Source: an uncultured Rubrobacteraceae bacterium (lineage in GTDB: Bacteria > Actinomycetota > Rubrobacteria > Rubrobacterales > Rubrobacteraceae). From it: 64,000 nucleotides of DNA. Under the pieces are notes generated by a model. The model had not been told where the DNA came from, made no database searches, and was given only the letters and a program-made list of their open reading frames with translations. Shown here one piece after another: positions 10,194 through 32,647 of the stretch (the first letter of the stretch is position 1; each line of letters begins with the position of its first letter). The stretch spans positions 1 to 64,000 of the forward strand of contig CADCVH010000055.1 of the NCBI GenBank assembly GCA_902806085.1, given 5' to 3'. The translations under genes were made by a program, and so were the position numbers.

Positions 10194-10775
10194 ATGGCAT
10201 CCCTTACACCGAAGGCGTTCGCGAAGCGTTGGGCCGACGCCGCGCTCTCCGAACGGTCCTCCTACCAACAGCACTTCCTCGACCTGTGCGACGTGATCGG
10301 GGCCCCAAAGCCGGCCGAGATGGACCCGAAGGGCGAGTTCTACACGTTCGAGAAGGGCGTGGAGAAGACGGGCGGCGGCAAGGGCTTCGCCGACGTGTGG
10401 TTCAAAGACCACTTCGCCATCGAGTACAAAGGCCGCCACAAGGACCTCCGCGCCGCCTACGGCCAGCTCCTCCAGTACCGTGAGTCCCTCGAGAACCCGC
10501 CCGTCCTCGTCGTGACCGACACGGACCGCTTCGAGATCCACACGAACTTCACCGGCACCGTCACCGAAGTCCACGCCTTCACCAACGAGGAGCTGCCGGA
10601 TCCGGAGAACATGAAGGTCTTGCGGGCAATGTTCGAGGACCCGTACTCGCTCAAGCCCGACCGGACCGTCGAGGGTGTTACGGAGGAGGTCGCCGGCAAG
10701 TTTGCCATCCTGGCCGATGGGATGCGCGACCGCGGCGTCGAGCCGGAGGCGGCGGCCCACTTCCTCAACATGTAA
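10194..10775 (+). pseudogene. N-terminal fragment of a MmeI-type (type IIL) restriction-modification enzyme
   Basis: 193 residues matching the N-terminal nuclease region of large combined endonuclease/methyltransferases such as MmeI. A PD-(D/E)xK core is visible, with D67 in FADVWF and E77/K79 in IEYKG. The protein stops at AAHFLNM, exactly where intact family members continue into a conserved FLMR...FAEDI region and then the methylase domain, so roughly 700 residues are missing. Sequence after the breakpoint is AT-rich and leads straight into a recombinase gene. Without its methyltransferase the fragment is probably not functional as a restriction system. Confidence 0.75.
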
Positions 10776-10806
10776 GTTATGTGGAATATTAAGCATACTT
10801 AACTTA
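10773..10806. repeat. AT-rich nested inverted repeats at the R-M/recombinase junction
   Basis: TAAGTTA (10773-10779) and TAACTTA (10800-10806) form an inverted repeat. Inside it TTAAG-CATA-CTTAA (10789-10802) is a second exact palindrome. The stretch is far more AT-rich than its surroundings and lies precisely at the point where the restriction gene loses homology, just upstream of the recombinase start. It could be the recombinase promoter/operator, its crossover site, or both. Confidence 0.45.
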
Positions 10807-10820
10807 TTCTTGTTGCAATC

Positions 10821-12203
10821 ATGTCTTTTGCCGTGCAACCTACTCGTATGGGTAGGATAAATTGGGAACGGGTTCCGTCCGTGGCGCAGACCCCACACGC
10901 GCGCTCATGGTTGAGAATCCAGTCGGACATGGGACTGGCCCAGAACACCATAGACGCGTACGGTCCTGGCCTTGAAGAGTATTTGATCTTCTGCGACAGC
11001 AACGGTGTCGAGGCCCCGGCAGCCACTCGCGCTCAGGTCGCGTCGTACGTTCGCCATCTGCGCGAGCGTCCGACACATCGAGGTAACCCGAGCCTCAATT
11101 CTGAGACGCAGAATGGGCGCCTGTCGAACGCGACTATCCAGCAACGGCTAACCGTGGCCCGTCTGTTCTACGACTACCTCATTGAGGAGAGGTGTCGCGA
11201 CGACAATCCGGTCGGACGCGGACGGTACACTCCTGGCAACGGTTTCGGCGGACGCCGCGGCATGGTGCGTCGCTATGTGAAGCTGCCCTGGATACCCTCG
11301 GACCTCCAGTGGATGGAGTTGCTTGACGCCATGCGGAGGGAATCACTTCGCAACCGCTTGATGCTGGCGTTAGCGTACGACGCGGCCCTCAGGAGAGAAG
11401 AGCTTTGCTCGCTCACCATAGAAGACATAGACCCCGCGCCGCGGTTGCTTCGCATAAGGGCGGAGACCACGAAGGGCGGTCAAGAACGGGTCGTTCCCTT
11501 CTGGGAAGCCTCCGACCAACTGTACAGGGCATACCTGGCCGAGAGGCGCAGCGTCAGTCGGCGCCCCGGTCCGCTCTTTCTCTCGGAGTCTAGGCGCAAC
11601 CTGGGACAGCCAATCGGGCTTTGGACGTGGTCGAAGGCGCTCAGGTCCGTGGCCAAGCGCACGGGTGTCGACCGATTCTCAACCCACACCCTGCGACACC
11701 TTCGTCTCACGGACCTGGCGCACGCCGGTTGGGAGATACACGAGATCGCCACGTTTGCGGGCCACAGACACACGGACACGACCAACGACTTCTACGCTAC
11801 TTGTCCGCACCGTATGGCCTGCCCCGGGTGCTCTTGGTACGTCCCCAAAGAATCGATGAAGGCTCAACTGCTTGAGGGCAAGGCCAACCTGCTCAGGTGT
11901 CAGGAAGAATTGACCCTCTCGGAGGACGAGGCCGCAGCCGTCGATGAGGGCATACGGTTGCACAAGAAGCTTCTCGATCGCCTCTCCGACGTGCCCACCC
12001 CGGCGGGCCCCACGCCGCGCGAACTGCTGGACCCCGCCACCGAAGACGTTTCGGGCGCCGCGGCGCGTAAGCCGCTGCCCGCGTCGGCGAGCCGTTCGCC
12101 CTCTCCCCTACTTCAGATCGGGCGCAAGCCCTCTGATAGATCGGTGCCTTCCGTCTGCGGTACCCGGAGAGAAGGCGTTCCTCAGCTCTTCGCAGGCTTC
12201 TAA
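10821..12203 (+). CDS. Tyrosine recombinase (site-specific integrase, Tn554/TnpA-like)
   Basis: A 460-residue phage-integrase-family recombinase. The SAM-like core-binding domain covers about residues 25-120. Catalytic residues are visible: R191 in LRREEL, K218 in TKGGQ, H289 and R292 in HTLRH, H315 in AGHRH and Y325 in NDFYATC. After the tyrosine comes a CPGCSWYVP zinc-like motif and a coiled C-terminal tail, a layout seen in transposon-encoded recombinases of the Tn554 type rather than XerC/D. The last 90 or so residues are low-complexity and overlap an antisense reading frame, so the native C-terminus may have been replaced on insertion. It probably moved the element that truncated the upstream restriction gene. 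Confidence 0.85.
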   Translation: MSFAVQPTRMGRINWERVPSVAQTPHARSWLRIQSDMGLAQNTIDAYGPGLEEYLIFCDSNGVEAPAATRAQVASYVRHLRERPTHRGNPSLNSETQNGRLSNATIQQRLTVARLFYDYLIEERCRDDNPVGRGRYTPGNGFGGRRGMVRRYVKLPWIPSDLQWMELLDAMRRESLRNRLMLALAYDAALRREELCSLTIEDIDPAPRLLRIRAETTKGGQERVVPFWEASDQLYRAYLAERRSVSRRPGPLFLSESRRNLGQPIGLWTWSKALRSVAKRTGVDRFSTHTLRHLRLTDLAHAGWEIHEIATFAGHRHTDTTNDFYATCPHRMACPGCSWYVPKESMKAQLLEGKANLLRCQEELTLSEDEAAAVDEGIRLHKKLLDRLSDVPTPAGPTPRELLDPATEDVSGAAARKPLPASASRSPSPLLQIGRKPSDRSVPSVCGTRREGVPQLFAGF

Positions 12204-22990: not shown

Positions 22991-23007
22991 CCGTTGGTTG
23001 AATAGTT

Positions 23008-23889
23008 TTAGGAGGGCCCGCTTTCCAATTCTTTCATCACATCCTCATACTCTCTCCTCTGGCGGCGCTGCCGCCTCTCGTCCCTGATTCGGGTGAAGAT
23101 GAGCTCCAGCTGCCTCTTGGCCTTCTCCGCGATTTCCGCACACTCTTGGTCGTCCTTCCTGTGCAGCGACACGCTGAGACGACCGTAGACTATCGATAGC
23201 GGGTTGCGTCCGGGGATCTTCACGGAGTCTGGTAGGGCCTCGTTGGCGAGCCTGATAGTGGTCTCCATGTCCCTCTCTTCCGGGACCGTACCGAGCTCCC
23301 CCCCTTCCCCGGATTCTTTCGCGAGTCTCACCGTCAGGTTTTCCAGGATCCGGCGAAGGTACGCGCACGCCGCTACCCCGTAGGACTGGCTCAGGCAGGC
23401 CAGCGCCTTCTTGTACAGATCCGCGTCGTCGCCTAAAGCATCCAGCAGGTCCTCGCTAGGGGAGATCTCGTAAGGGGGCACCTGGCCGATCTTCCGGACG
23501 CGCTGCCTGCCGGTATGCCGGTTCTGCGGGTGCGCCTCGATCCAACACTGGAACACGCTCGAGTTGCATCCTGTGCACAAGAAGGTTAGAGAGTGGACCG
23601 GACCGGCCGCGAGCCAGGCGGCGTCGTGCATTTGCTCAGAAGAGAGACCCGGCTCCTGGTGGAAAGCGGTCCCATACATACCTTCCCCAGGCATGCGGTT
23701 GAAGGGGCGCCCGGTTTTGCACCTGGGATGCTCGCAGCGACGGTACAGCTTGTCCGTGCTGAGGTAGGACCCCAAGTTGCCACTGACGTTGCCCTCTCCC
23801 CACAGATCCTGGAGATCTAGCCACTTGTAGATGGGGTCGTCGGCTATGAAAGCGTTGAGGCGCTCGTGAGGCTGAACTCCCTCCGTCAT
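23008..23889 (-). CDS. Hypothetical protein, DUF4145-like
   Basis: A 293-residue soluble protein. The N-terminal third has a zinc-ribbon-like set of cysteines (RRCEHPRCKTGRPF and FLCTGCNSSVFQCW). The middle carries the helical DLYKKALACLSQSYGVAACAYLRRILENL segment characteristic of DUF4145-like proteins, which often occur with restriction or defence genes. The C-terminal tail is highly basic (RDERRQRRQRREYEDV). Function unknown. It stands alone on the minus strand in accessory DNA. Confidence 0.7.
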   Translation of the reverse strand: MTEGVQPHERLNAFIADDPIYKWLDLQDLWGEGNVSGNLGSYLSTDKLYRRCEHPRCKTGRPFNRMPGEGMYGTAFHQEPGLSSEQMHDAAWLAAGPVHSLTFLCTGCNSSVFQCWIEAHPQNRHTGRQRVRKIGQVPPYEISPSEDLLDALGDDADLYKKALACLSQSYGVAACAYLRRILENLTVRLAKESGEGGELGTVPEERDMETTIRLANEALPDSVKIPGRNPLSIVYGRLSVSLHRKDDQECAEIAEKAKRQLELIFTRIRDERRQRRQRREYEDVMKELESGPS

Positions 23890-24011
23890 ACGCCGCCTAC
23901 CACGTTAGAAGTGAGGCTGACAACGTCGCCCTGCCCATACCCCTTCAAGCCCTGCCCCCTATCCGCCGATCGACCTTCTCCGTGCCCCCGCGGCGCCGTC
24001 TTCACCCGCCC

Positions 24012-24221
24012 TCACCGTGGCGCTCGATGGACCGGCGCCGCATCCTTGAGCATCTCGCGCGCTATTGCCACGTCCGCGGCCAGGACCCCCTTCGGGTCGG
24101 ACGAGATCCCGGCCTCGAAGCGGTCCACCATCATCTCCATCTCATCGACGTCTTCGAGGGTTCGGACTTGCCTCCATCCGTCGTAGACGGCCGTCCGCTC
24201 CCTCTGCTCTTCGTCGCTCAT
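24012..24221 (-). CDS. Small hypothetical acidic protein
   Basis: A 69-residue frame starting MSDEEQRERTAVYDGWRQV, entirely helical and charged (EDVDEMEMMVDRFEAG), with GGGGAGGTTCC-like purines before ATG 24221. No family recognised. It lies next to a PIN toxin gene in an accessory region, in the same orientation. Confidence 0.5.
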   Translation of the reverse strand: MSDEEQRERTAVYDGWRQVRTLEDVDEMEMMVDRFEAGISSDPKGVLAADVAIAREMLKDAAPVHRAPR

Positions 24222-24273
24222 CGGAACCTCCCCTTCGGCCGGACCCATGGTACCCGTTCCCGGCTAGATCGCC

Positions 24274-24705
24274 TCAGACCCGGCGCCCCAGCTCTTCCAC
24301 GAACACGCGGGGGTGCGAGACGCGGAGGGGCTTGACGCCGTCCCCGGCGGTCAGCACGGGGGCCAGGGTCAGCAGGTGCTTCTGGTCCTGGGAGACCAGG
24401 AAGTCGGCCCCGTTTGCGAGGGCCAGGGAGACCAGGTAGTCGTCGTCCGGGTCGGGGCTGAACCGCCCCCAGTCCGGCGCGTCCGGCACGAACTCCGCCC
24501 GCTCCCTGATCCACGCCACGTAGGCCAGGACGTCGAAGTAGACGAGCCGGCCAAGGAAGTACGGCCTCAAGAGCACGGACTCCAGCTCGTAGAGCAGGTC
24601 GTAGGAGACGACCATCAGGAACCTCCCCGAGAGCCAGGCCGCCAGCAGCTCGCGCGGCGCGCCCCTCGAGGAGATGGCGGCGGAGACTAGCACGTTGGGG
24701 TCCAC
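24274..24705 (-). CDS. PIN-domain ribonuclease (VapC-type toxin)
   Basis: A 143-residue PIN protein. The catalytic acidic residues are visible in DPNVLVSA (first Asp), YELESVL (Glu) and DPDDDYLVSLALANGADFLVSQD (paired Asp). It would cleave RNA when free of its antitoxin. The start is uncertain: GTG 24705 leaves only one residue before the first catalytic Asp, while the conserved strand RAVVDPN continues upstream without an ATG, GTG or TTG. It follows the antitoxin gene by 32 bases. Confidence 0.8.
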   Translation of the reverse strand: MDPNVLVSAAISSRGAPRELLAAWLSGRFLMVVSYDLLYELESVLLRPYFLGRLVYFDVLAYVAWIRERAEFVPDAPDWGRFSPDPDDDYLVSLALANGADFLVSQDQKHLLTLAPVLTAGDGVKPLRVSHPRVFVEELGRRV

Positions 24706-24737
24706 GACCGCCCTGACGGGGCCGGGTTCTCCGGGTT

Positions 24738-25121
24738 CTATCCCTCGGCCCTCTCGCGCTCGGCCTGCTCGCGGCGCTCGCGCCTCCAGGCGTGCTGCTC
24801 CTCGACGGCGATCCTCTCCGCCTCGTCCTCGTCCAGGTCGAAGCGGCTTCCCGTGTGGTCCAGGAGGGCGAGGAACGGGTCGCGCGGGGGCGGCTGTTCC
24901 CCGGCGCCGCGATCCGTGACCAGATCGAAAGCGCGCTGCACCTCGGCCATGTACGTGGGCGTCGGCCCCCCGAGCAGCGAGGCCCCTTCCTTCCGGAAGG
25001 CCAGGTACTCCCTGACGGCCTCCTCCAGCACCTCCTCTACCGGGACGCCGCGACGCTCGGCCAGCAGACGCGCGCCGTCCATGAGCTCGGCGCTGATCTC
25101 GGTCCTCTGCCTCTCTGCCAT
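24738..25121 (-). CDS. Antitoxin of the PIN toxin pair (RHH/CopG-like)
   Basis: A 127-residue protein. Residues 1-45 (RTEISAELMDGARLLAERRGVPVEEVLEEAVREYL) resemble a ribbon-helix-helix DNA-binding domain. The longer C-terminal part is acidic and disordered-looking and would wrap the toxin (FDLDEDEAERIAVEEQHAWRRERREQ). It is directly upstream of the PIN gene in the same operon, which is the usual antitoxin-first order. GGAGGTAGAGAG precedes the ATG. It would neutralise the nuclease and repress the operon, by analogy with VapBC. Confidence 0.75.
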   Translation of the reverse strand: MAERQRTEISAELMDGARLLAERRGVPVEEVLEEAVREYLAFRKEGASLLGGPTPTYMAEVQRAFDLVTDRGAGEQPPPRDPFLALLDHTGSRFDLDEDEAERIAVEEQHAWRRERREQAERERAEG

Positions 25122-25210
25122 CTCTCTACCTCCTTCAGCCCGATTGTCGCACGCCCCGCGGGATTCGGGGAAGGCTTCTTATCCGACGTTGGGCGAATAT
25201 ACCGGAGCGG

Positions 25211-25636
25211 TTAGAAACCTCCTCGGTACTCGTATGTAGGCAGAGCGGGTTTACCCAGGTCCTCGCGAACGGCCTTGAAGAACCCGGTCTTTGCGGCGCC
25301 GTACTCGGCGTTGCTGACCCCTCTTGCCGAACCGCTCGCTGAGCCACGCGCCACGTACCCCACCTTGTCTGCGGCACGCTCTACCGCTTCGGGAGCAATG
25401 ATGCGCACTATGCCGTCGCACCTCCGGTACTCTTGCCACGCGGCGGAGCTCCGGTCCTCCCCCGAAAACAGGAGATCGGTGCTCGCTACGAACTCCGCGT
25501 AAGCCTGACGGCGCTCGTGGTAGTCGCGGTATTCGTCCTCCCTCTTGAACCCGCGCAGGTCCTGCGACCTCTGGAGCAAGTAGTTCAGCAAGCTACCGAT
25601 CACCACGCCGACGAGGCCGAAGATCGCTACGGTCAA
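25211..25636 (-). CDS. Hypothetical membrane-anchored protein
   Basis: A 141-residue protein with one N-terminal membrane helix (VAIFGLVGVVIGSLLNYLLQ, residues 3-22) and a cytoplasmic helical remainder (YHERRQAYAEFVASTDLLF and later helices). The layout GxxGxxxG-LLQ then a charged coiled helix is a common small orphan family in actinobacteria, often in accessory DNA. No function is known. Start GTG or ATG at 25636 places the helix directly at the N-terminus. Confidence 0.6.
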   Translation of the reverse strand: MTVAIFGLVGVVIGSLLNYLLQRSQDLRGFKREDEYRDYHERRQAYAEFVASTDLLFSGEDRSSAAWQEYRRCDGIVRIIAPEAVERAADKVGYVARGSASGSARGVSNAEYGAAKTGFFKAVREDLGKPALPTYEYRGGF

Positions 25637-25712
25637 GGCGACCAGCCCCCGAACACCCTACACCCCCACGGACGGGACAGAGGCCCCTGTGAAGCCGATA
25701 CGGTACGCGGCC

Positions 25713-26066
25713 CTAGCCACCGAGATCGTTCTCCCTCCGGGCCGTGCGTTCGATCAGCGCGACCATCTCATCAGCGGCCCAAGGTTGGGCCCACGAACCC
25801 GGCTCGGGGGGCGGGTTGATGAGAAAGTCGTCGCACCGATCGTCGTCGTGGGCCCGGCGCACCAGGCCGATGACCTCGTCGGTCAGATCGCTGTGACGCA
25901 GGAAGACGTCCAGGGGGGCATCTTGCCCCTCCCTGAAGGCCCTCGCCTTCTCCTCGGAGCTGAAGAACGGGAAGTACCGGGTCCCGGCCAGGTTCATAAG
26001 GAGCGGCCCGGCACCCGCGACTTCCCACCAGTAGATGGTCGGGACCGTAGGGCTTAGATCCTCCAC
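25713..26066 (-). CDS. Hypothetical small protein
   Basis: A 117-residue soluble protein with compact alpha/beta composition (TIYWWEVAG, RYFPFFSSEEKARAFREG, DLTDEVIGLVRRA). The segment FFSSEEKARAF resembles SseB or DUF-type small globular proteins that read as 'value-in-field then helix'. No family can be fixed. It lies on the minus strand between accessory genes. Confidence 0.5.
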   Translation of the reverse strand: MEDLSPTVPTIYWWEVAGAGPLLMNLAGTRYFPFFSSEEKARAFREGQDAPLDVFLRHSDLTDEVIGLVRRAHDDDRCDDFLINPPPEPGSWAQPWAADEMVALIERTARRENDLGG

Positions 26067-26135
26067 TTATGGACTCCTCCGCTCGCCGTTTCTCTTCATC
26101 GTACCCCGGCGTCCCCCGCCGCGGGCACCGAAGCC

Positions 26136-26213
26136 TCAAGGGTTCCCGATCGGGCCGGCCAAGAGCGGCAACAACGCCACCAAGGCCACTACCCCCCAAA
26201 GAGCCTCCGCCAC
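26136..26213 (-). CDS. Possible 25-residue hydrophobic peptide
   Basis: GTG 26213 to TGA 26136 encodes MAEALWGVVALVALLPLL plus seven residues, a single membrane helix. Its start lies inside the end of the preceding small ORF. Very short, so support rests only on composition and tight overlap. Confidence 0.25.
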   Translation of the reverse strand: MAEALWGVVALVALLPLLAGPIGNP

Positions 26214-26317
26214 CAGGGCCGCGTCTCCGGACCCTGCGCGGGCTCCTGCCGTCCTGCTCGCATCCCAGACGCGTCCTGCCCCTCAGGCGCCCGCTCCTGG
26301 CGTTCCTCTCGCTCCAT
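26189..26317 (-). CDS. Possible 42-residue basic/acidic small protein
   Basis: ATG 26317 to TAG 26189. The product is charged, rich in Glu, Arg and Gln, and ends RPWWRRLFGG, an aromatic-basic amphipathic tail that looks membrane-associating. It overlaps a hydrophobic mini-ORF. No family recognised. Confidence 0.35.
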   Translation of the reverse strand: MEREERQERAPEGQDASGMRAGRQEPAQGPETRPWWRRLFGG

Positions 26318-26480
26318 ACGGGGAAGCGTACACGCTAGGCGTAGTCCCCGCCCCCTGGGAGCTCGTCTTGGCCGATCTCTTGCATCCGGAGCGCCGCTGC
26401 CTTTGTTGGCGGGTTGGTCTAGGCGCCTTCCTGCCGAAGCCATAACTTGTAACATTCCCGTGTGCCGTTATGTCAGAAAC
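26318..26480. other. Intergenic stretch before the recombinase operon
   Basis: No gene seen. It becomes AT-rich from about 26440, which introduces the promoter region of the operon at 26628. Confidence 0.4.
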
Positions 26481-26545
26481 CGCATACCTATGCGGCAAAC
26501 ACTGGACAACGACCCGCCGATCTGATACAATGTTGCATAGTAGAC
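26481..26545 (+). promoter_or_regulatory. Promoter and palindromic operator of the recombinase operon
   Basis: TGGACA (26503-26508) and TACAAT (26526-26531) are separated by exactly 17 bases, a near-consensus sigma-70 promoter and the best in the window. Eight bases upstream of the -35 box CGCATA-CC-TATGCG (26481-26494) is a perfect palindrome. A second dyad GTTG...CAAC surrounds the likely +1. Together they suggest a tightly regulated promoter for the four-gene operon beginning at 26628. Confidence 0.6.
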
Positions 26546-26627
26546 AACCCAACGGTGCCATGATAGCGGCCCCGGCGAGAGCGACCACTCCCCCGGAGCC
26601 CGGCCCACAGCCAACAAGGAGGCGACT

Positions 26628-26978
26628 GTGGACAGGACCAGTTTACCCCCGCCCACGACGACGGAACAGGAGGCCGCGAAGGCCGCGCTGCTGGACGCCG
26701 CCAGGGACGCGCTAGAGTGGCTCAGGCGCTTCCAGAGGCACGCCCCCGCCGAGGCCCGGTTCGGCGGAGAGGAGGGGCTGACGAGGAGGCTGTCGTCGGC
26801 GGTGAGGATGTGCTCGTTCGAGGTGCGGGACTGCCCGGAGTGCGACGACGGGTTGGCCTATGCGCCGACGGAGCACCCGATGGAGCGGCCGAGGTCCGTT
26901 CCTTGCCCCTCGTGCGGCGGGACCGGCAGGACGCGGGTCTTCGCCTACGCCAGGCCGAAGGCGAGGCGGGGCCGTTGA
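26628..26978 (+). CDS. Small zinc-ribbon protein, first gene of recombinase operon
   Basis: A 116-residue protein. The N-terminal half is a helix (AAKAALLDAARDALEWLRRFQ). The C-terminal half has CPEC (C69, C72) and CPSCGGTG (C93, C96), a DnaJ-like zinc-ribbon pair separated by 20 residues. GTG start 26628 has AAGGAGG seven bases upstream. Its TGA overlaps the TTG start of the next gene. It probably binds DNA or a protein partner. Not a known recombination directionality factor, although its position before a large serine recombinase makes that worth testing. Confidence 0.75.
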   Translation: MDRTSLPPPTTTEQEAAKAALLDAARDALEWLRRFQRHAPAEARFGGEEGLTRRLSSAVRMCSFEVRDCPECDDGLAYAPTEHPMERPRSVPCPSCGGTGRTRVFAYARPKARRGR

Positions 26979-28174
26979 GGACAGCCGAGGCTTTGCCGAC
27001 GCTACGGATGGGCAGCTACCTCGCCTACGAGGCGCTGCCGGCGGAGGCACGGGACGGCCTGGTGCCGGTGCGCGTGGACCCGATCGAGCCCGTCGTGCCG
27101 CTGACCTACGAGCCGGAAGTCTGCGGGCTCTTGACGCCGGAGCAGTGGATGGTCGGCGAGTGGCCGGAGTACTCGGCGAGTTATTGGCAGATGCTCGACC
27201 GCCTCGGCGCGGGTCGGATAGCCGACGAGCTGGCCGCCATCTCGGAGCGTCACGGCGGCAAGACGATCTGCCTGCTGGACCACGACAGCCCGTGGCGAAG
27301 CCCGTACGGGCATGGCCGGGGCCACGGCGACAGCACCCCGCGCACCGCCTTCGCCGCCTGGTGGGAGCGGTCGGTCGGGGAGCCGGTTCTCGAGCTCCTG
27401 CCCGACGGCACGACCGTCCACCCCGCGGACTTCCCGAAGCGGGTGCAGCCCGTGGTGCCGAAGGACCCGAAGGAGGACCGCCGCTGGCGCGACGCGCCCG
27501 AGTTGCCCTGGCCGCCCACCGAGGAGGACGTTGCGCGCTGGATGGATGCGGTCTACTGGCAGACGGCGCGGACCCCGAACAATCCTCATCAGTACAATCA
27601 CCGCGCATGGGGGCCGGAGCTGCCGTTCTGGCGGGTGGTGATGTGGATCAGGGAGACGGGCGAGACGGAGGTGTGGGGCAACCGCCGGACGTTCAGGTAC
27701 AAGCGGGTCGGGGACTACAAGCTGTGGACAATGGGCCACGCGTTGGCAAGCACGATAATCCTGAACAGGAAAGAATGGGGCGCCGATCCGCAGGACCACG
27801 AGAAGGACGGCCGGGAGAGTACGGACCGGAAGCCAGCCTGGGCGGAGCGGCCAGTCGAGGCGCCGCTGTTCGACCGAGACGGGAGGCCGCTGAGCTTGGT
27901 CGAGAGGATCAACCACGAGCACCGTGCCTGCGCCCTGGCGACCGGCGCCGCCGTCCGGCACGCCGTCCGCTGCGGGGAGCTGCTCGCCGAGGCGAAGGCC
28001 GGCGTGAGGCACGGCGAGTGGCTGGGCTGGCTGCGCGAGAACTTCGCTGGCAGCGCGAGGACCGCGCAGAAGTACATGCGGCTGCACCAGGAGAGGACAA
28101 CCCCACGGACGGCAAATACGCACGCTCAGACGCATTTAGAGACAGGGCAGGAGATCGAAAGAAGATCCGCGTGA
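26975..28174 (+). CDS. Composite protein: DUF488-like N-terminus and DUF3102 C-terminus
   Basis: About 399 residues with three parts. First (about 12-110) is a DUF488-like alpha/beta domain (MGSYLAYEALP, later ELAAISERHGGKTICLLDHD). The middle (about 185-275) has NPHQYNHRAWG, FWRVVMWIRETG and YKLWTMGHALASTIILNR, an orphan family seen with phage-like genes. The end (about 310-370) is DUF3102 (VERINHEHRACALATG, then LLAEAKAGVRHGEWLGWL), a helical domain linked to mobile DNA. TTG 26975 overlaps the previous stop (TTGA); ATG 27008 is the alternative start. The function of the combination is unknown. Confidence 0.65.
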   Translation: MRTAEALPTLRMGSYLAYEALPAEARDGLVPVRVDPIEPVVPLTYEPEVCGLLTPEQWMVGEWPEYSASYWQMLDRLGAGRIADELAAISERHGGKTICLLDHDSPWRSPYGHGRGHGDSTPRTAFAAWWERSVGEPVLELLPDGTTVHPADFPKRVQPVVPKDPKEDRRWRDAPELPWPPTEEDVARWMDAVYWQTARTPNNPHQYNHRAWGPELPFWRVVMWIRETGETEVWGNRRTFRYKRVGDYKLWTMGHALASTIILNRKEWGADPQDHEKDGRESTDRKPAWAERPVEAPLFDRDGRPLSLVERINHEHRACALATGAAVRHAVRCGELLAEAKAGVRHGEWLGWLRENFAGSARTAQKYMRLHQERTTPRTANTHAQTHLETGQEIERRSA

Positions 28175-28665
28175 CGGAGAAGAGGGACGAGGCGGATCAG
28201 GACCGGGCCACCTGCTTCCACGAGGCGGCGCACGCCGTCTTCGCCCTGCGGGTGTGCGGGGGGTGGGTCCGCTACGTGGACGCCGACGAGTACTTCTGCG
28301 CCTCCGGCGTGCCAAACTACGGTGGCGAGGCCGACCGCTTGCGCGAGGCGATGTACACGCTGGCCGGCCCCTTCGCCGAGAGGCTGGACGCCTGGGGCGA
28401 GACGAGGTCCGAGCCCTGGGACGAGCTGGCCTTGCTCCACGAGACCGAGAGCCTCGAACTGGGGAGCGACGTGCACGGCCTGATGACGAGCCTCGAAAGG
28501 GCGGACGATCCCGAGACAGAGTACCGGGCCGCGGTGGAGGAGACCGAGGAGCAGGTGCGCGAGCTGTGGCCGGAGATTACGGCCGTGGCGGAGGCCCTGG
28601 CGAAGCGCCGGAGGCTGGACGGCGAGGAGGTCGAGAGCATCATCAACAGGGAGGAAACGCCGTGA
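28171..28665 (+). CDS. Small HEAAH metalloprotease-like protein
   Basis: A 164-residue protein starting at GTG 28171, which overlaps the previous TGA (GTGA). CFHEAAHAVFAL gives HExxH at residues 17-21. YTLAGPFAERLDA and GSDVHGLM resemble the LGGRAAEE and SND segments that supply the third zinc ligand in the FtsH (M41) peptidase domain. It has no AAA domain and no membrane helix, so it is a free-standing M41-like domain. Could be a protease that cleaves a repressor, as ImmA does, or a non-catalytic fold. Its GTGA stop/start link to the recombinase suggests a role in element mobility. Confidence 0.65.
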   Translation: MTEKRDEADQDRATCFHEAAHAVFALRVCGGWVRYVDADEYFCASGVPNYGGEADRLREAMYTLAGPFAERLDAWGETRSEPWDELALLHETESLELGSDVHGLMTSLERADDPETEYRAAVEETEEQVRELWPEITAVAEALAKRRRLDGEEVESIINREETP

Positions 28666-30368
28666 CCAAGAGGGCCGTGCTGTACGCCAGGGTTAGCAAC
28701 CGCAGCCAGGACGAGCGCGGGCTGTCCATACCGGCACAGTTCGCGGAGCTTGGGGCGTGGTGCGAGGCCAACGGCTACGAGGTGGTCGGCCAGGTTGCCG
28801 ACACGGGCGGCAAGGGCTCCAAGCGCGACGACCTTGAGCGGGCCGGTCTGGACGAGCTCTACGACACCGCCGAGCGCCTGCGGCTCGTCGAGGGCGACGT
28901 GGTCCTCGCGCAGAGCTGGGACCGCTTCGGGGAGAACAACGTGCCAGAGTGGATCGGGCGGCGGTTGGCCTCAGTGTGCGGGGGAAGGCTACGGACGCCG
29001 GACGACCCCAACGAGGGGGACGACGACGGCGCGGACCTACTGAGGCTGGTCGGGCGGTGGAACGCCGGGCGCGAGCGCAGGCTGATGGCCCGCAGGACCC
29101 GCAGCAGAAAGCTGGAGCTGGCGAGGACCGGGCACATAGTCGCCAGCCACACCCCGACCTACGGGTACGCCTACGCCGGGACACACAAGGCCAGGCTCTA
29201 CGAGGTCCACGAGGAGCGCGCCGCCGTCGTGAGGAGGATCTTCGCCGAAGTGGCGGACGGGACCGGAATCCGCACGATCGTTCGGGCGCTCGACGCCGAG
29301 GGCGTCCCCCTGCCGCCGGGCAAGAAGAGGCCAGGGTGGCACGGTTGGAACAGGGAGTTCGTCCGCCACCTGATCCGCAACGACGTCCACCTGCCCCACA
29401 CGGACGACGAGCTCGACGCCCTGGTCGCGTCGGGCGACTTGCGCCCCGAGGTACGGAGCCGCGCCGCTGCCGGCTCCGGGATCTGGTGGTACCGCGGCAA
29501 GGACTACGAGGGCGACGCACACAGGGTCGCGGTGCCGGTCCCCAGCGTCGGCGTGCCGAGGACGACCGTTGAGAGGGCCCGCGGGCGGCTCGCCTCCAAC
29601 CGGCCGGCGTCGTCGGCGGCGGGCCGGTTCTGGCCGCTCTCCCGCGGCATCATGATCTGCGGCGGCTGCGGCCGGAACATGGCGACCCACACCGTCGGCA
29701 AGAAGGACAACGGGAAGGTCCACCGCTACTACCGCTGCCAGAGCACCGGCGACACCGTGAAGGGCACGTGCCCCACCCCCGTGCACGTACCCGCTGAGAA
29801 GGCAGAGGCGGCGGTGTGGGAGTGGATCGTGGACCTCGAGTGCGAGCCGCGGCGGATAGTGTCCCTGCTCGACCGGAGGATCGAGGCCGAACGCCGGCGG
29901 CTGCGGGCGGACCCGGAGAAGGAGGCGCGGGAGCTGCGGCGCCGGATCGACGCCACGGCCGCCCGGCGGGCCAACTACCAGGACCAGCAGGCCGCAGGCC
30001 TGATGACCATAGACGAGCTGCGCGCGCGGCTCGAGGCGCTCGCCGAGGAGCGGGCGGGCCTGGAGCGCCAGGTCGAGGAGTGCGACAGGCTGGGCGAGGG
30101 CCTGCTGGAACTGGAAGAACTGAGAGAGTACTATGCGGCGGCGGCCGGGCCAGAGGGGTGGATGATGAGGAACGCGGTCTCCGACGCCACCGAGGTCCGG
30201 CGCATGAGGATGCTCAAGGAGACCGGCGGGCCGGACCAGAGGCGCCGCTACGAGGCGCTGGGGCTGACGGCGACGGCCGTGGCCCACGACACACTGGAGA
30301 TCACAGGGATCTTCGGGGTGGGCGGTGTTGACATCTTGACAACGTCGCGAGGACCAGGTGCCCGGTGA
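28662..30368 (+). CDS. Large serine recombinase (integrase)
   Basis: A 568-residue recombinase starting at GTG 28662 (GTGA overlap). The resolvase domain opens AVLYARVSNRSQ with catalytic S12, then SIPAQ and QSWDRFGENN. The Recombinase domain has GYAYAGTHKARLYEV and IRTIVRALDAEGVP. A zinc ribbon (CGGCGRNMATH... C...C) and a coiled coil (about residues 415-490, REL..RIDATAARRANY) follow. These are the parts of phiC31/Bxb1-like integrases. The last codons (after DILTT) read into the broken pilB gene on the opposite strand, so the target gene supplies the present C-terminus and stop codon. Confidence 0.88.
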   Translation: MTKRAVLYARVSNRSQDERGLSIPAQFAELGAWCEANGYEVVGQVADTGGKGSKRDDLERAGLDELYDTAERLRLVEGDVVLAQSWDRFGENNVPEWIGRRLASVCGGRLRTPDDPNEGDDDGADLLRLVGRWNAGRERRLMARRTRSRKLELARTGHIVASHTPTYGYAYAGTHKARLYEVHEERAAVVRRIFAEVADGTGIRTIVRALDAEGVPLPPGKKRPGWHGWNREFVRHLIRNDVHLPHTDDELDALVASGDLRPEVRSRAAAGSGIWWYRGKDYEGDAHRVAVPVPSVGVPRTTVERARGRLASNRPASSAAGRFWPLSRGIMICGGCGRNMATHTVGKKDNGKVHRYYRCQSTGDTVKGTCPTPVHVPAEKAEAAVWEWIVDLECEPRRIVSLLDRRIEAERRRLRADPEKEARELRRRIDATAARRANYQDQQAAGLMTIDELRARLEALAEERAGLERQVEECDRLGEGLLELEELREYYAAAAGPEGWMMRNAVSDATEVRRMRMLKETGGPDQRRRYEALGLTATAVAHDTLEITGIFGVGGVDILTTSRGPGAR

Positions 30369-31608
30369 GGGCGGCCTCAACGCTTGTCTTGGCGGTCTCC
30401 CGGTCGCGGATCTCGCCTATCATCACGACGTCGGGGTCGGCCCTGAGGATGCTTCTGAGGCCCGAGGCGAACGTCAGGCCGACCTTGGGGTTTACCTGCA
30501 CCTGGTTGACGCCGGGCATCCGGTACTCCACCGGGTCCTCGACGGTGATGATGTTCTTCTGCGGGGAGTTGAGCTCTTCGAGGGTCGCGTACAGCGTCGT
30601 GGACTTGCCCGAGCCCGTGGGCCCGGTAACGAGCACGGTGCCGTAGGGGCGCGTGTAGACCTCCTCGTATTCTTGGAGTGTCTGGGGGTCGAACCCTAAA
30701 GCGCCGAGGTCGGCCTGCACGTTCGCGGTGTCGAGGAGGCGCAGCACCACCTTCTCGCCAAAGACGGTCGGCAAAATAGCGGCGCGCAGGTCGAGCTTCT
30801 GGGTGCCGAGCCGGACGGAGAACCGTCCGTCCTGGGGCAGGCGCCGCTCCGCTATGTCGAGGTCGGCGAGGATCTTTAGCCGCGCGAGCATGCCGCTCTG
30901 GAGCTTGGGCGGCACGCGCATTATCTTGCGCAGCACGCCGTCGACGCGCATGCGCACCGTGAGCCCGTCGGCGCGGGGCTCGAAGTGGATGTCGGAGGCG
31001 CCCTCGCCGACCGCCCGCTGCAGGATCGAGCCCACGAGCCGGATGACGGGCGCGTTCTCGGCGTTCGTGTGCTCCCCGAGCTCCACCACCCCAAAGTCGC
31101 CTTCGGGGGATTCGCCCGCCGCGTCTTCGAGCATCTTGGTCACGTCCCCGCCGAGGGCGTAGACCCTGTTGAAGACCCGCTGTATCTCGTCTTCGACCGC
31201 GACCACAGGCGTGATGGGGTACCCCGAGATCATCCCGAGATCCTCGATGGCGTAGAAGTTGGTGGGGTCGCTCATCGCGACGACGAGCCGCCCGTTCTCG
31301 AGGCGCAGGGGCAGCATGTTGTGCTTGCGCAGCAGCTTGCTCTCCGCGACCGCCGTTACGCTTCGGTCCACGTCTCTTTCGGTGACCTCCACGTACTCCA
31401 GGCGAAGCTTCTTCGCGAGGGCCATGGCAAGGTCGGCCGGCGACACGTAGCCCGCGGAGAGCAGGATCCGGCCGAGCTGGCGCCCGTCGTGGCGCTGCAC
31501 GGAGAGCGCCTCGTCGAGCTGGGAGCGGGTGATCTTGCCCTGGGCGAGCAGGGTCTCCCCGACCTTGTCCCCCCCAAACCCAGCCTTTTTTTCGCCGACA
31601 CCGCCCAC
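30301..31608 (-). pseudogene. pilB: Type IV pilus assembly ATPase PilB/GspE, 3' end lost
   Basis: A GspE/PilB ATPase whose N-terminal MshE-like domain (VGETLLAQGKITRSQLDEAL) and most of the ATPase are intact. Walker A (GPTGSGKSTT), Asp box (ITVEDPVEY) and Walker B (LRADPDVVMIGEIRD) are present. After TGHLVLATL the reading becomes SRCQHRPPRRSL and stops, so the second half of the His box, the C-terminal 130 or so residues and the tetracysteine zinc site are missing. GTG 31608 is my preferred start; the frame is open further upstream. It should be unable to power pilus assembly. It follows the prepilin peptidase gene in the same direction. Confidence 0.85.
30328..30345. other. Probable attachment/insertion junction in pilB
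   Basis: TTGACA occurs twice eight bases apart (30328-30333 and 30336-30341). At 30340 the conserved pilB reading (LVLATL, then normally HTN) stops and unrelated sequence begins. This is the predicted crossover position of the serine recombinase. The partner junction was not found in the window. Confidence 0.55.
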
Positions 31609-31897
31609 CCTGGTGTTTTCGGCCCCTTTCCCGATTTTGTTTATCGTCCCTACTCCTCGCCGGGGCGCCCGCAAAAGGCGCAAGCAACGGTCCACGATTT
31701 CGCCGTAAGCCGAGTATGCTGCGGGCCGGGCAGCCCATATGCCACGCGGCCATTCCCGCCGGGCCACCCGGCCCTTCACGCCTCAGAAGGCGGCATCGTG
31801 CGTTGAAACCCCGCCACCGCTGACGTAATCCGGTGTGTTTGCCCCGCGGTCAACCGGCGCGCCCTACTTTGGGAGCCTCCGCGCGCCGCCGAGGGTC

Positions 31898-32647
31898 TTA
31901 GGCGATGCCGGTCAGGTTCAGGTAGAGGCCCCAGAGCTGGGGACCGGCGAACAGCGCGACGAGCCCCCCGAACGCCATGAACGTCCCGAAGGGAAGGGCG
32001 CTTCCGCGCTCGAGCCTGCCCACGGCCACCAGCGCCGCGTAGGCGACGGTCCCGGAGAGCGCCCCGACAAAGACCGCCATCGCGGCGTACGGGCCGAGGA
32101 ACAGGCCGAGCATCCCGCCCATCTTGACGTCCCCCATGCCCATACCGCCGGGGTAGACCGCGGCCAACCCGAAGAGGAAGCCCGCAACCGCCAACGCGGC
32201 CAGGGGATACGTCCACCACGCCGCCGGCCCGCCCCAAAAGGAGAGCACGAGCCCGGCGAGGGAGGCAGGACCCACTATCGCGTTGGGCAGAAGCCGGTGC
32301 TCGAGGTCCGTGACGGCCAGCGCGGCCAACGCCGAGATCAGCGCCAGCGAGAGCGCGAGCTGGCCCGCGCCTTCGAACCGGAAGGCCGCGGCCCCGAAAA
32401 GGAGCCCCGTGAGCCCCTCCACGAGCGGGTAGCGCACCGGGATAGCCTCCGCGCAGTGACGGCAACGTCCCCTTAGCAGCGCGTAGGAGACCAGGGGCAC
32501 GTTGTCCCTGCGGAGGATGGGCTTCCCGCAGCCGGGGCAACGCGAGGCCGGCCGAACCGCCGACAGGCCGGCCGGGACCCGGTGCACGACCACGTTCAAG
32601 AAGCTACCCACGACGAGGCCAAGCAAGATCGTCCAGACAACTATCAC
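31898..32647 (-). CDS. pilD: Prepilin peptidase (A24 family)
   Basis: A 249-residue integral membrane aspartic protease. The N-terminal methylase-like region has two CxxC pairs (CPGCGKPI and CRHC), and the peptidase domain has the two catalytic aspartates in AVTDLEHRLLPN and GMGMGDVKMGG. About seven membrane helices are visible. It removes the leader from type IV prepilins and methylates the new N-terminus. The neighbouring pilB is broken, so its substrates here may be unused or encoded elsewhere. Confidence 0.92.
   Translation of the reverse strand: MIVVWTILLGLVVGSFLNVVVHRVPAGLSAVRPASRCPGCGKPILRRDNVPLVSYALLRGRCRHCAEAIPVRYPLVEGLTGLLFGAAAFRFEGAGQLALSLALISALAALAVTDLEHRLLPNAIVGPASLAGLVLSFWGGPAAWWTYPLAALAVAGFLFGLAAVYPGGMGMGDVKMGGMLGLFLGPYAAMAVFVGALSGTVAYAALVAVGRLERGSALPFGTFMAFGGLVALFAGPQLWGLYLNLTGIA

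Follow-up and report, generated by a model that had tools for sequence, protein, structure and literature searches.

Large serine recombinases such as the integrases of phiC31, TP901-1, A118 and Bxb1 carry Resolvase, Recombinase and zinc-ribbon domains and a catalytic serine, and integrate at a specific chromosomal site. Genes for DNA uptake and processing are among the targets of mobile elements: prophages and other elements are found in comYC, comFA, comM, comK, radC and cas3 (Croucher et al. 2016, PMC4774983), an arrangement which these authors argue protects the elements from deletion by transformation; comM also harbours the islands of A. baumannii (PMC11472951), and the Listeria comK prophage splits a competence-pathway gene that can be restored by excision, a state termed ‘active lysogeny’ (PMC8987985). 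Cluster K mycobacteriophages, for their part, carry a short conserved sequence with an inverted repeat around the starts of non-structural genes (SAS/ESAS, PMC3203893). The locus described here resembles each of these. It lies in a stretch of 64,000 nucleotides (hereafter the window) from an uncultured Rubrobacteraceae bacterium (contig CADCVH010000055.1), in which four genes, for a zinc-ribbon-like protein (ZN), a composite protein (A), a metalloprotease-like protein (B) and a large serine recombinase (LSR), form the recombinase operon of an integrative element inserted in the pilus gene pilB and belonging to a Rubrobacteraceae-wide family. Integrase operons of integrative elements that sit in DNA-uptake genes are of a kind already known; the present variant is unreported, and its family-wide 5′ leader is the most novel part.

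The recombinase operon and the interrupted pilB gene

The 3′ end of LSR reaches into pilB, which is interrupted and lies on the opposite strand (Table 1); an earlier, sequence-only reading of this DNA had missed this. The reading of pilB breaks off within ‘TGHLVLATL’, and the last codons of LSR (RGPGAR and the stop) are pilB DNA read in reverse. Integration thus both interrupts the gene of the pilus ATPase and gives the recombinase its final codons and stop. Contig C40 of the source genome (G000; 4.41 Mb, 133 contigs, contamination 4.55%) starts with an uninterrupted pilB, in which the empty attachment site (attB) is seen, and continues with pilT and pilC; bases 1-127 of this contig are identical to window positions 30473-30347 and divergent afterwards. 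One usual k-mer size in short-read assemblers is 127 bases. Given an exact overlap of this length, the empty and the filled site are probably both present in the assembly graph, i.e. both states of pilB were probably sequenced. Because pilB, pilT and pilC are contiguous in a relative (G006), the pilB of the window is the gene that was interrupted, as opposed to an incomplete paralogue. A 12-bp direct repeat, TGACAACGTCGC, occurs at 23918-23929 and 30337-30348, with its right copy overlapping the element-pilB junction and its left copy 6.4 kb upstream. As a pair of left and right attachment sites (attL and attR) it was rejected, since it does not join the pilB halves.

Four open reading frames are present on the + strand at 26628-30368, as the sequence-only reading had described, and of the stop-start overlaps on which that reading built, TTGA, GTGA and GTGA, both GTGA overlaps (A-B and B-LSR) hold; the TTGA overlap is taken up below. 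Such overlaps are frequent in GC-rich operons and alone are nothing remarkable. LSR has in addition a strong ribosome site, GGGAGG, ahead of its start. The operon promoter matches 10 of 12 hexamer positions, with one mismatch per hexamer, where 0.0 such matches were expected in shuffles. The perfect inverted repeat just upstream is a possible operator, a role suggested by its position only.

LSR was correctly taken for a large serine recombinase: Pfam matches cover the Resolvase, Recombinase and Zn_ribbon_recom domains (5.7e-14, 2.6e-08 and 8.9e-13), and the catalytic serine is present in the motif YARVS, as it is in 44 of the 46 aligned recombinases that have a residue at this position. In PDB, the sole result was a weak match of the recombinase to TP901-1. 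ZN had no Pfam match above the cut-off, and homologues of it occupy the same position in four other loci (L086, L098, L065 and L072; L-numbers denote recombinase or leader loci, G-numbers the genomes compared and C-numbers contigs of G000). Protein A had been read as a composite of DUF488-like and DUF3102 parts. Its C-terminal part is indeed a DUF3102 domain (Pfam, E 3e-10, 40.9 bits vs a cut-off of 24.4); its N-terminal part gave no DUF488 match in the Pfam search, has lost the motifs YTSRW and CHR, and is 28% identical to true DUF488 proteins of sister loci on alignment. A is a fusion, the three pieces of which (DUF488-like, PHxY and DUF3102) exist separately elsewhere.

For B, an ImmA-like protease that removes a repressor had been suggested. 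This is not borne out: B has no M78 match in Pfam, and the XRE gene that would encode such a substrate is absent in this class of loci. B itself has only weak Pfam matches and leaves the M41 profile unmatched, but at HEAxH and at a downstream Asp, the putative third ligand, it aligns with a protein of L079 and with an M41 protein of L102, the latter being a HEAGH protein with an M41 Pfam match of 8.7e-09. B therefore appears nearer to M41 than to M78 and, as an M41-type protease without an ATPase domain, might degrade a small regulator. A genuine XRE-M78 protein was seen in another element (L117, 13455-14618). Scanned singly against public contigs, A, B and LSR each gave no confirmed relative, and single-sequence AlphaFold models of A and B were uninformative (pLDDT 35.6 and 46.2).

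The 5′ leader of the operon

Between the promoter and ZN lies a leader that recurs across the family. Covariation shows two hairpins, P1 and P2, the second of which holds the start codon (GTG, 26628-26630) of the first gene in its stem and the ribosome site (AAGGAGG, 26616-26622) in its loop. In an alignment of 33 leaders, 88.7% of P1 cells are paired compared with 39-55% when the partner strand is slid, and 36 cells are changed on both sides compared with at most 11 in the slid control. For P2, 184 of 224 cells are paired, against a mean of 141.4 and a maximum of 160 in 2000 shuffles; as the leaders are related and were collected with a leader-built model, the shuffles overstate significance, a weakness of which the slid control is free. 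When the P2 partner is shifted by a single base, pairing drops to half, from 196 to 95 or 99. The start codon of P2 itself covaries with its partner, as GTG/CAC in 15, TTG/CAA in 8 and ATG/CAT in 3 of 32 leaders, such that its first base changes together with the opposite base (G-C 15, T-A 8, A-T 3 of 32). From this structure we infer a regulatory function for the leader.

A covariance model detected the leader in 29 of 60 genomes, with 1-7 copies each; 28 of these genomes are of the Rubrobacteraceae-type family, and the one match outside is weak. No Rfam 15 model matches 26539-26636 (window positions 23000-32000 scanned), and the leader DNA pattern had no match in viral contigs. Genes behind the leader vary widely (SWIM, CxxC, PHxY, DUF488), and many start with a similar peptide, M(D/I)xxSVA in type. 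Copies of the leader also lie ahead of operons in tyrosine-integrase elements that have the same kind of XRE gene as is found beside the serine recombinases, so the leader is a feature of the elements rather than of the recombinase. Listed copies are those of the window, L063, L065, L070, L081, L115-L117 and L149-L167.

Table 1. Coordinates of the recombinase operon, its control region and the pilB junction in the window.
Feature	Position	Strand	Remarks
Perfect inverted repeat	26480-26495	.	CCGCATA-cc-TATGCGG; just upstream of promoter
Promoter, sigma-70-type	26503-26531	+	TGGACA, 17-nt spacer, TACAAT; TG before -10 box (extended -10)
Family-wide 5′ leader	26539-26636	+	5′ untranslated region and first codons; model R1, 65.7 bits, E 1.1e-15 (one genome), this copy being one of the 11 seed sequences of R1
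Leader hairpin P1	26568-26601	+	GGCCCCGGCGAG...CTCCCCCGGAGCC; covariation over 33 leaders
Leader hairpin P2	26605-26631	+	CCACAG (26605-26610) pairs with CTGTGG (26626-26631)
ZN	26628-26978	+	GTG start; first gene after leader; 116 aa, two CxxC pairs, zinc-ribbon-like
A	26975-28174	+	TTG start; TTGA overlap with ZN; diverged DUF488-like part (residues about 1-160), PHxY domain (about 163-290), DUF3102 (327-387)
B	28171-28665	+	GTG start; GTGA overlap with A; HEAAH metalloprotease-like
LSR, large serine recombinase	28662-30368	+	GTG start; GTGA overlap with B
Element-pilB junction (attR)	30340-30352	.	pilB identity from 30347 rightwards
pilB, N-terminal part (type IV pilus assembly ATPase, T2SSE)	30347-31779	-	cut at element

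The recombinase family, its two arrangements and its targets

Recombinases related to LSR were found in 33 of the 99 genomes examined, mostly of the Rubrobacteraceae-type family and with up to 13 matches per genome; the element family is present in most of the Rubrobacter relatives that were examined. Over 50 additional LSR loci were sorted by the gene directly upstream of the recombinase, and two arrangements stand out. A small XRE gene ends 14-42 nt before the recombinase in about 29 loci, and a DUF488 gene lies directly upstream of LSR in six (the window, L059, L065, L072, L086 and L098), with a matching zinc-ribbon gene in four of the five outside the window. No locus has both a DUF488 and an XRE gene directly upstream of the recombinase: XRE occurs in 0 of 6 DUF488 loci and in 29 of 41 others (Fisher p = 0.0017). 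L102 has the order XRE, HEAGH protein of family M41, recombinase. The suggestion that the four genes belong together is supported by these neighbourhoods, in which the DUF488 gene and, in L102, the M41 protein adjoin the recombinase; homologues are associated with it in a conserved manner and not scattered by chance. The set in the window is a variant of a recurring unit in which DUF488, usually with the zinc-ribbon gene, replaces XRE. Since the exact four-gene set was absent from all other loci examined, the fusion to DUF3102 and the gene for the HEAAH protein are added modules. A recombinase subgroup with the motif DR[FY]GE comprises those of the window (28662-30365), L059 and L072.

The two classes also differ in the orientation of the leader, which is co-directional with the recombinase in 4/4 loci of the DUF488 class (counting only loci that have the leader) and divergent in 16/16 of the XRE class (p = 0.0002). 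Outside the counted set the rule is not absolute: L166 has an XRE gene, yet its LSR is on the leader side. The leader of L104, where neither gene adjoins the recombinase upstream, is co-directional, and that of L074, in which no XRE gene was found, is divergent. A small XRE gene of the same kind as that before the serine recombinases lies directly before a tyrosine integrase in L149, L150, L154, L155 and L163, which argues that the upstream position is not specific to one type of recombinase.

At several loci the recombinase frame extends into the gene at which the element is inserted. In L059 it passes, in frame, into a gene for an ABC transporter ATPase, and in L072 into an alkA-like glycosylase gene; in L083 it reaches the last codons of comEA, again in frame and with comEC next, and in L086, a second element of the DUF488 class, it enters pilC. 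This indicates an attachment site within the 3′ end of the recombinase gene, whose tail would be rewritten by integration. Counting targets identified at the junction or within about 85 nt of it, those of uptake type are pilB, pilC, comEA and comEC (N-terminal part), and further ones are radC, priA, cas1, alkA, a DNA methylase gene, ybaB, ymdB, kptA, tenA and genes for a Mn catalase, a pyrimidine nucleoside phosphorylase, a short-chain dehydrogenase and the ABC ATPase. The recombinases of L083, L070, L086, L102, L068 and L089 lie in comEA, comEC, pilC, radC, cas1 and priA. In L090 and L116 (contig C83 of G000) the target is a stand-alone ComEC-type metallo-beta-lactamase gene before ssb; its assignment to comEC was withdrawn, as G000 has an intact, shorter ComEC without that domain on C90. 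The recombinase family thus appears repeatedly in DNA-uptake genes. Four sure uptake genes among about 18 distinct sites have a probability of 4e-06 if uptake genes make up an estimated 0.6% of all genes, and the same four over all 47 loci with downstream sequence one of 2e-04, in a test that was made post hoc and on clades that are not fully independent.

Elsewhere in the window, genes for a PIN-domain and a ribbon-helix-helix protein, likely a toxin-antitoxin pair, lie on the - strand at 24274-25121, between the left flank and the operon. The first 26 kb also hold an unrelated tyrosine integrase, beside which an N-terminal fragment of a restriction enzyme of type IIG (MmeI_N, 10194-12203) is likely to be what remains of another insertion.

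Interpretation and relation to known systems

Taken as a whole, the reading that we favour, and consider reasonably probable, is that of a recombinase operon which splits pilB, is controlled through its leader and blocks DNA uptake. The leader would keep translation of the first gene low until a signal opens the hairpin, the overlapping stops and starts would pass the state of the leader down to the recombinase, and excision would thereby be linked to the early programme of the element. The cut in pilB would block putative pilus-dependent DNA uptake and so protect the element from removal by transformation, and excision would restore the gene. B and the DUF3102 part would be accessory modules, perhaps degrading a host or repressor protein and binding DNA.

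Several points weigh against this reading. The 127-bp overlap speaks for two states of pilB only indirectly. No attL was found on any contig of G000, a search for the left end of the element by overlap with contig starts was also negative, and positions 1-26 kb of the window hold mostly ordinary metabolic genes, so that a rearrangement or, given the contamination of the assembly, a mixture of strains is possible. Most aligned recombinases (41 of the 44 with a residue there) have a second active-site Arg in the motif DRxxR; the window recombinase reads DRFGE, with Glu in its place, as in 3/44. The window leader alone folds barely better than shuffled sequences (z -1.0), and the case for the leader thus rests on covariation. 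In A, an alternative in-frame ATG at 27008 lines up with residue 1 of the DUF488 proteins encoded at sister loci; the TTGA overlap of ZN and A, one of the three in the operon as originally described, may therefore not be a genuine start. Targets unrelated to uptake also occur (Mn catalase, YmdB, TenA and a short-chain dehydrogenase), and the role of these pili in DNA uptake by Rubrobacter is putative only.

Some of the same observations would fit a decaying remnant of a prophage or integrative element, its recombinase inactive, pilB lost by deletion or rearrangement and nothing regulated now. The lack of an attL in the assembly, the replaced Arg and the left flank, which besides its metabolic genes includes an XRE/Excalibur pair with homologues adjoining pilD in G003, point in this direction. 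We nevertheless regard decay as somewhat unlikely, as all four reading frames are intact and so are the promoter and the leader pairing, the same DNA also yielded an assembled pilB junction that is intact, and the Glu variant, being shared with the recombinases of L059 and L072, looks like a clade trait. It is unlikely, too, that A and B form an accessory defence or anti-defence cassette riding behind the leader promoter beside the integrase: the exchange of SWIM, PHxY, DUF488, DUF3102 and M41-like proteins in varied combinations among such loci would be in keeping with a cassette, but PADLOC found no defence-system match, and any defence phenotype is hypothetical.

Tight linkage, overlapping reading frames and the conserved ZN-DUF488 order beside the recombinase could also be expected if ZN, A and B made up a recombination directionality factor or cofactor complex. 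This appears quite improbable. Relatives of the DUF488 protein occur in viral contigs as well as in genomes of Streptomyces and Micromonospora ((pro)phages), where the loci inspected contain genes for ParB and DNA methylases and lack a serine recombinase of the LSR type. The protein is hence a common component of actinobacterial phages rather than a partner dedicated to the recombinase, and it is unlikely to be a dedicated directionality factor; the sequence-only reading had named a directionality factor among its possible roles. Moreover, an XRE gene takes the same place before tyrosine integrases. Returning to the leader-controlled operon in pilB, it is tempting to extend it to the whole family, and we do so tentatively, as a possibility that falls short of being probable: the shared riboregulator would be a master translational switch of early operons, with the recombinase kept outside (XRE, divergent) or brought inside (DUF488, co-directional), while the recombinase family diversified onto many components of DNA uptake and DNA processing.

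The wiring of an integrase into an early operon, a structured leader and repeated integration into DNA-uptake genes can be tested together here. Integration into uptake genes would also put to the test, in a different phylum, the notion that transformation is disarmed by mobile elements to avoid their own deletion. New serine recombinases that combine an attB in coding sequence with an attachment site in their own 3′ end also have practical interest as tools for genome engineering.

Compared with integrases of the phiC31 type, LSR is set apart by an attachment site that overlaps its own 3′ end, with tail and stop provided by the target gene, and by the Glu of its subgroup. Like the competence-disrupting elements discussed above (PMC4774983, PMC11472951), the present family is found in DNA-uptake genes, in radC and in a cas gene; it differs in belonging to another phylum, in its reliance on one serine recombinase family and in mostly occupying other genes (pilB, pilC, comEA, comEC, cas1). 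In the Listeria comK prophage regulated excision restores the interrupted gene (PMC8987985), whereas here the target is a structural gene of the pilus machine and regulated excision is putative. Prophage DUF488 proteins of Streptomyces and Micromonospora are at best 35-40% identical to the DUF488 genes of sister loci, and their inspected neighbours are ParB and methylase genes instead of an LSR-family recombinase; the window copy lacks YTSRW and CHR. Finally, the leader shares with SAS/ESAS (PMC3203893) its conservation around translation starts, but its consensus is unlike that of SAS, GGGATAGGAGCCC, and it occurs once per operon, often with a -10-like box ahead, and features two covarying hairpins with the start codon in a stem.

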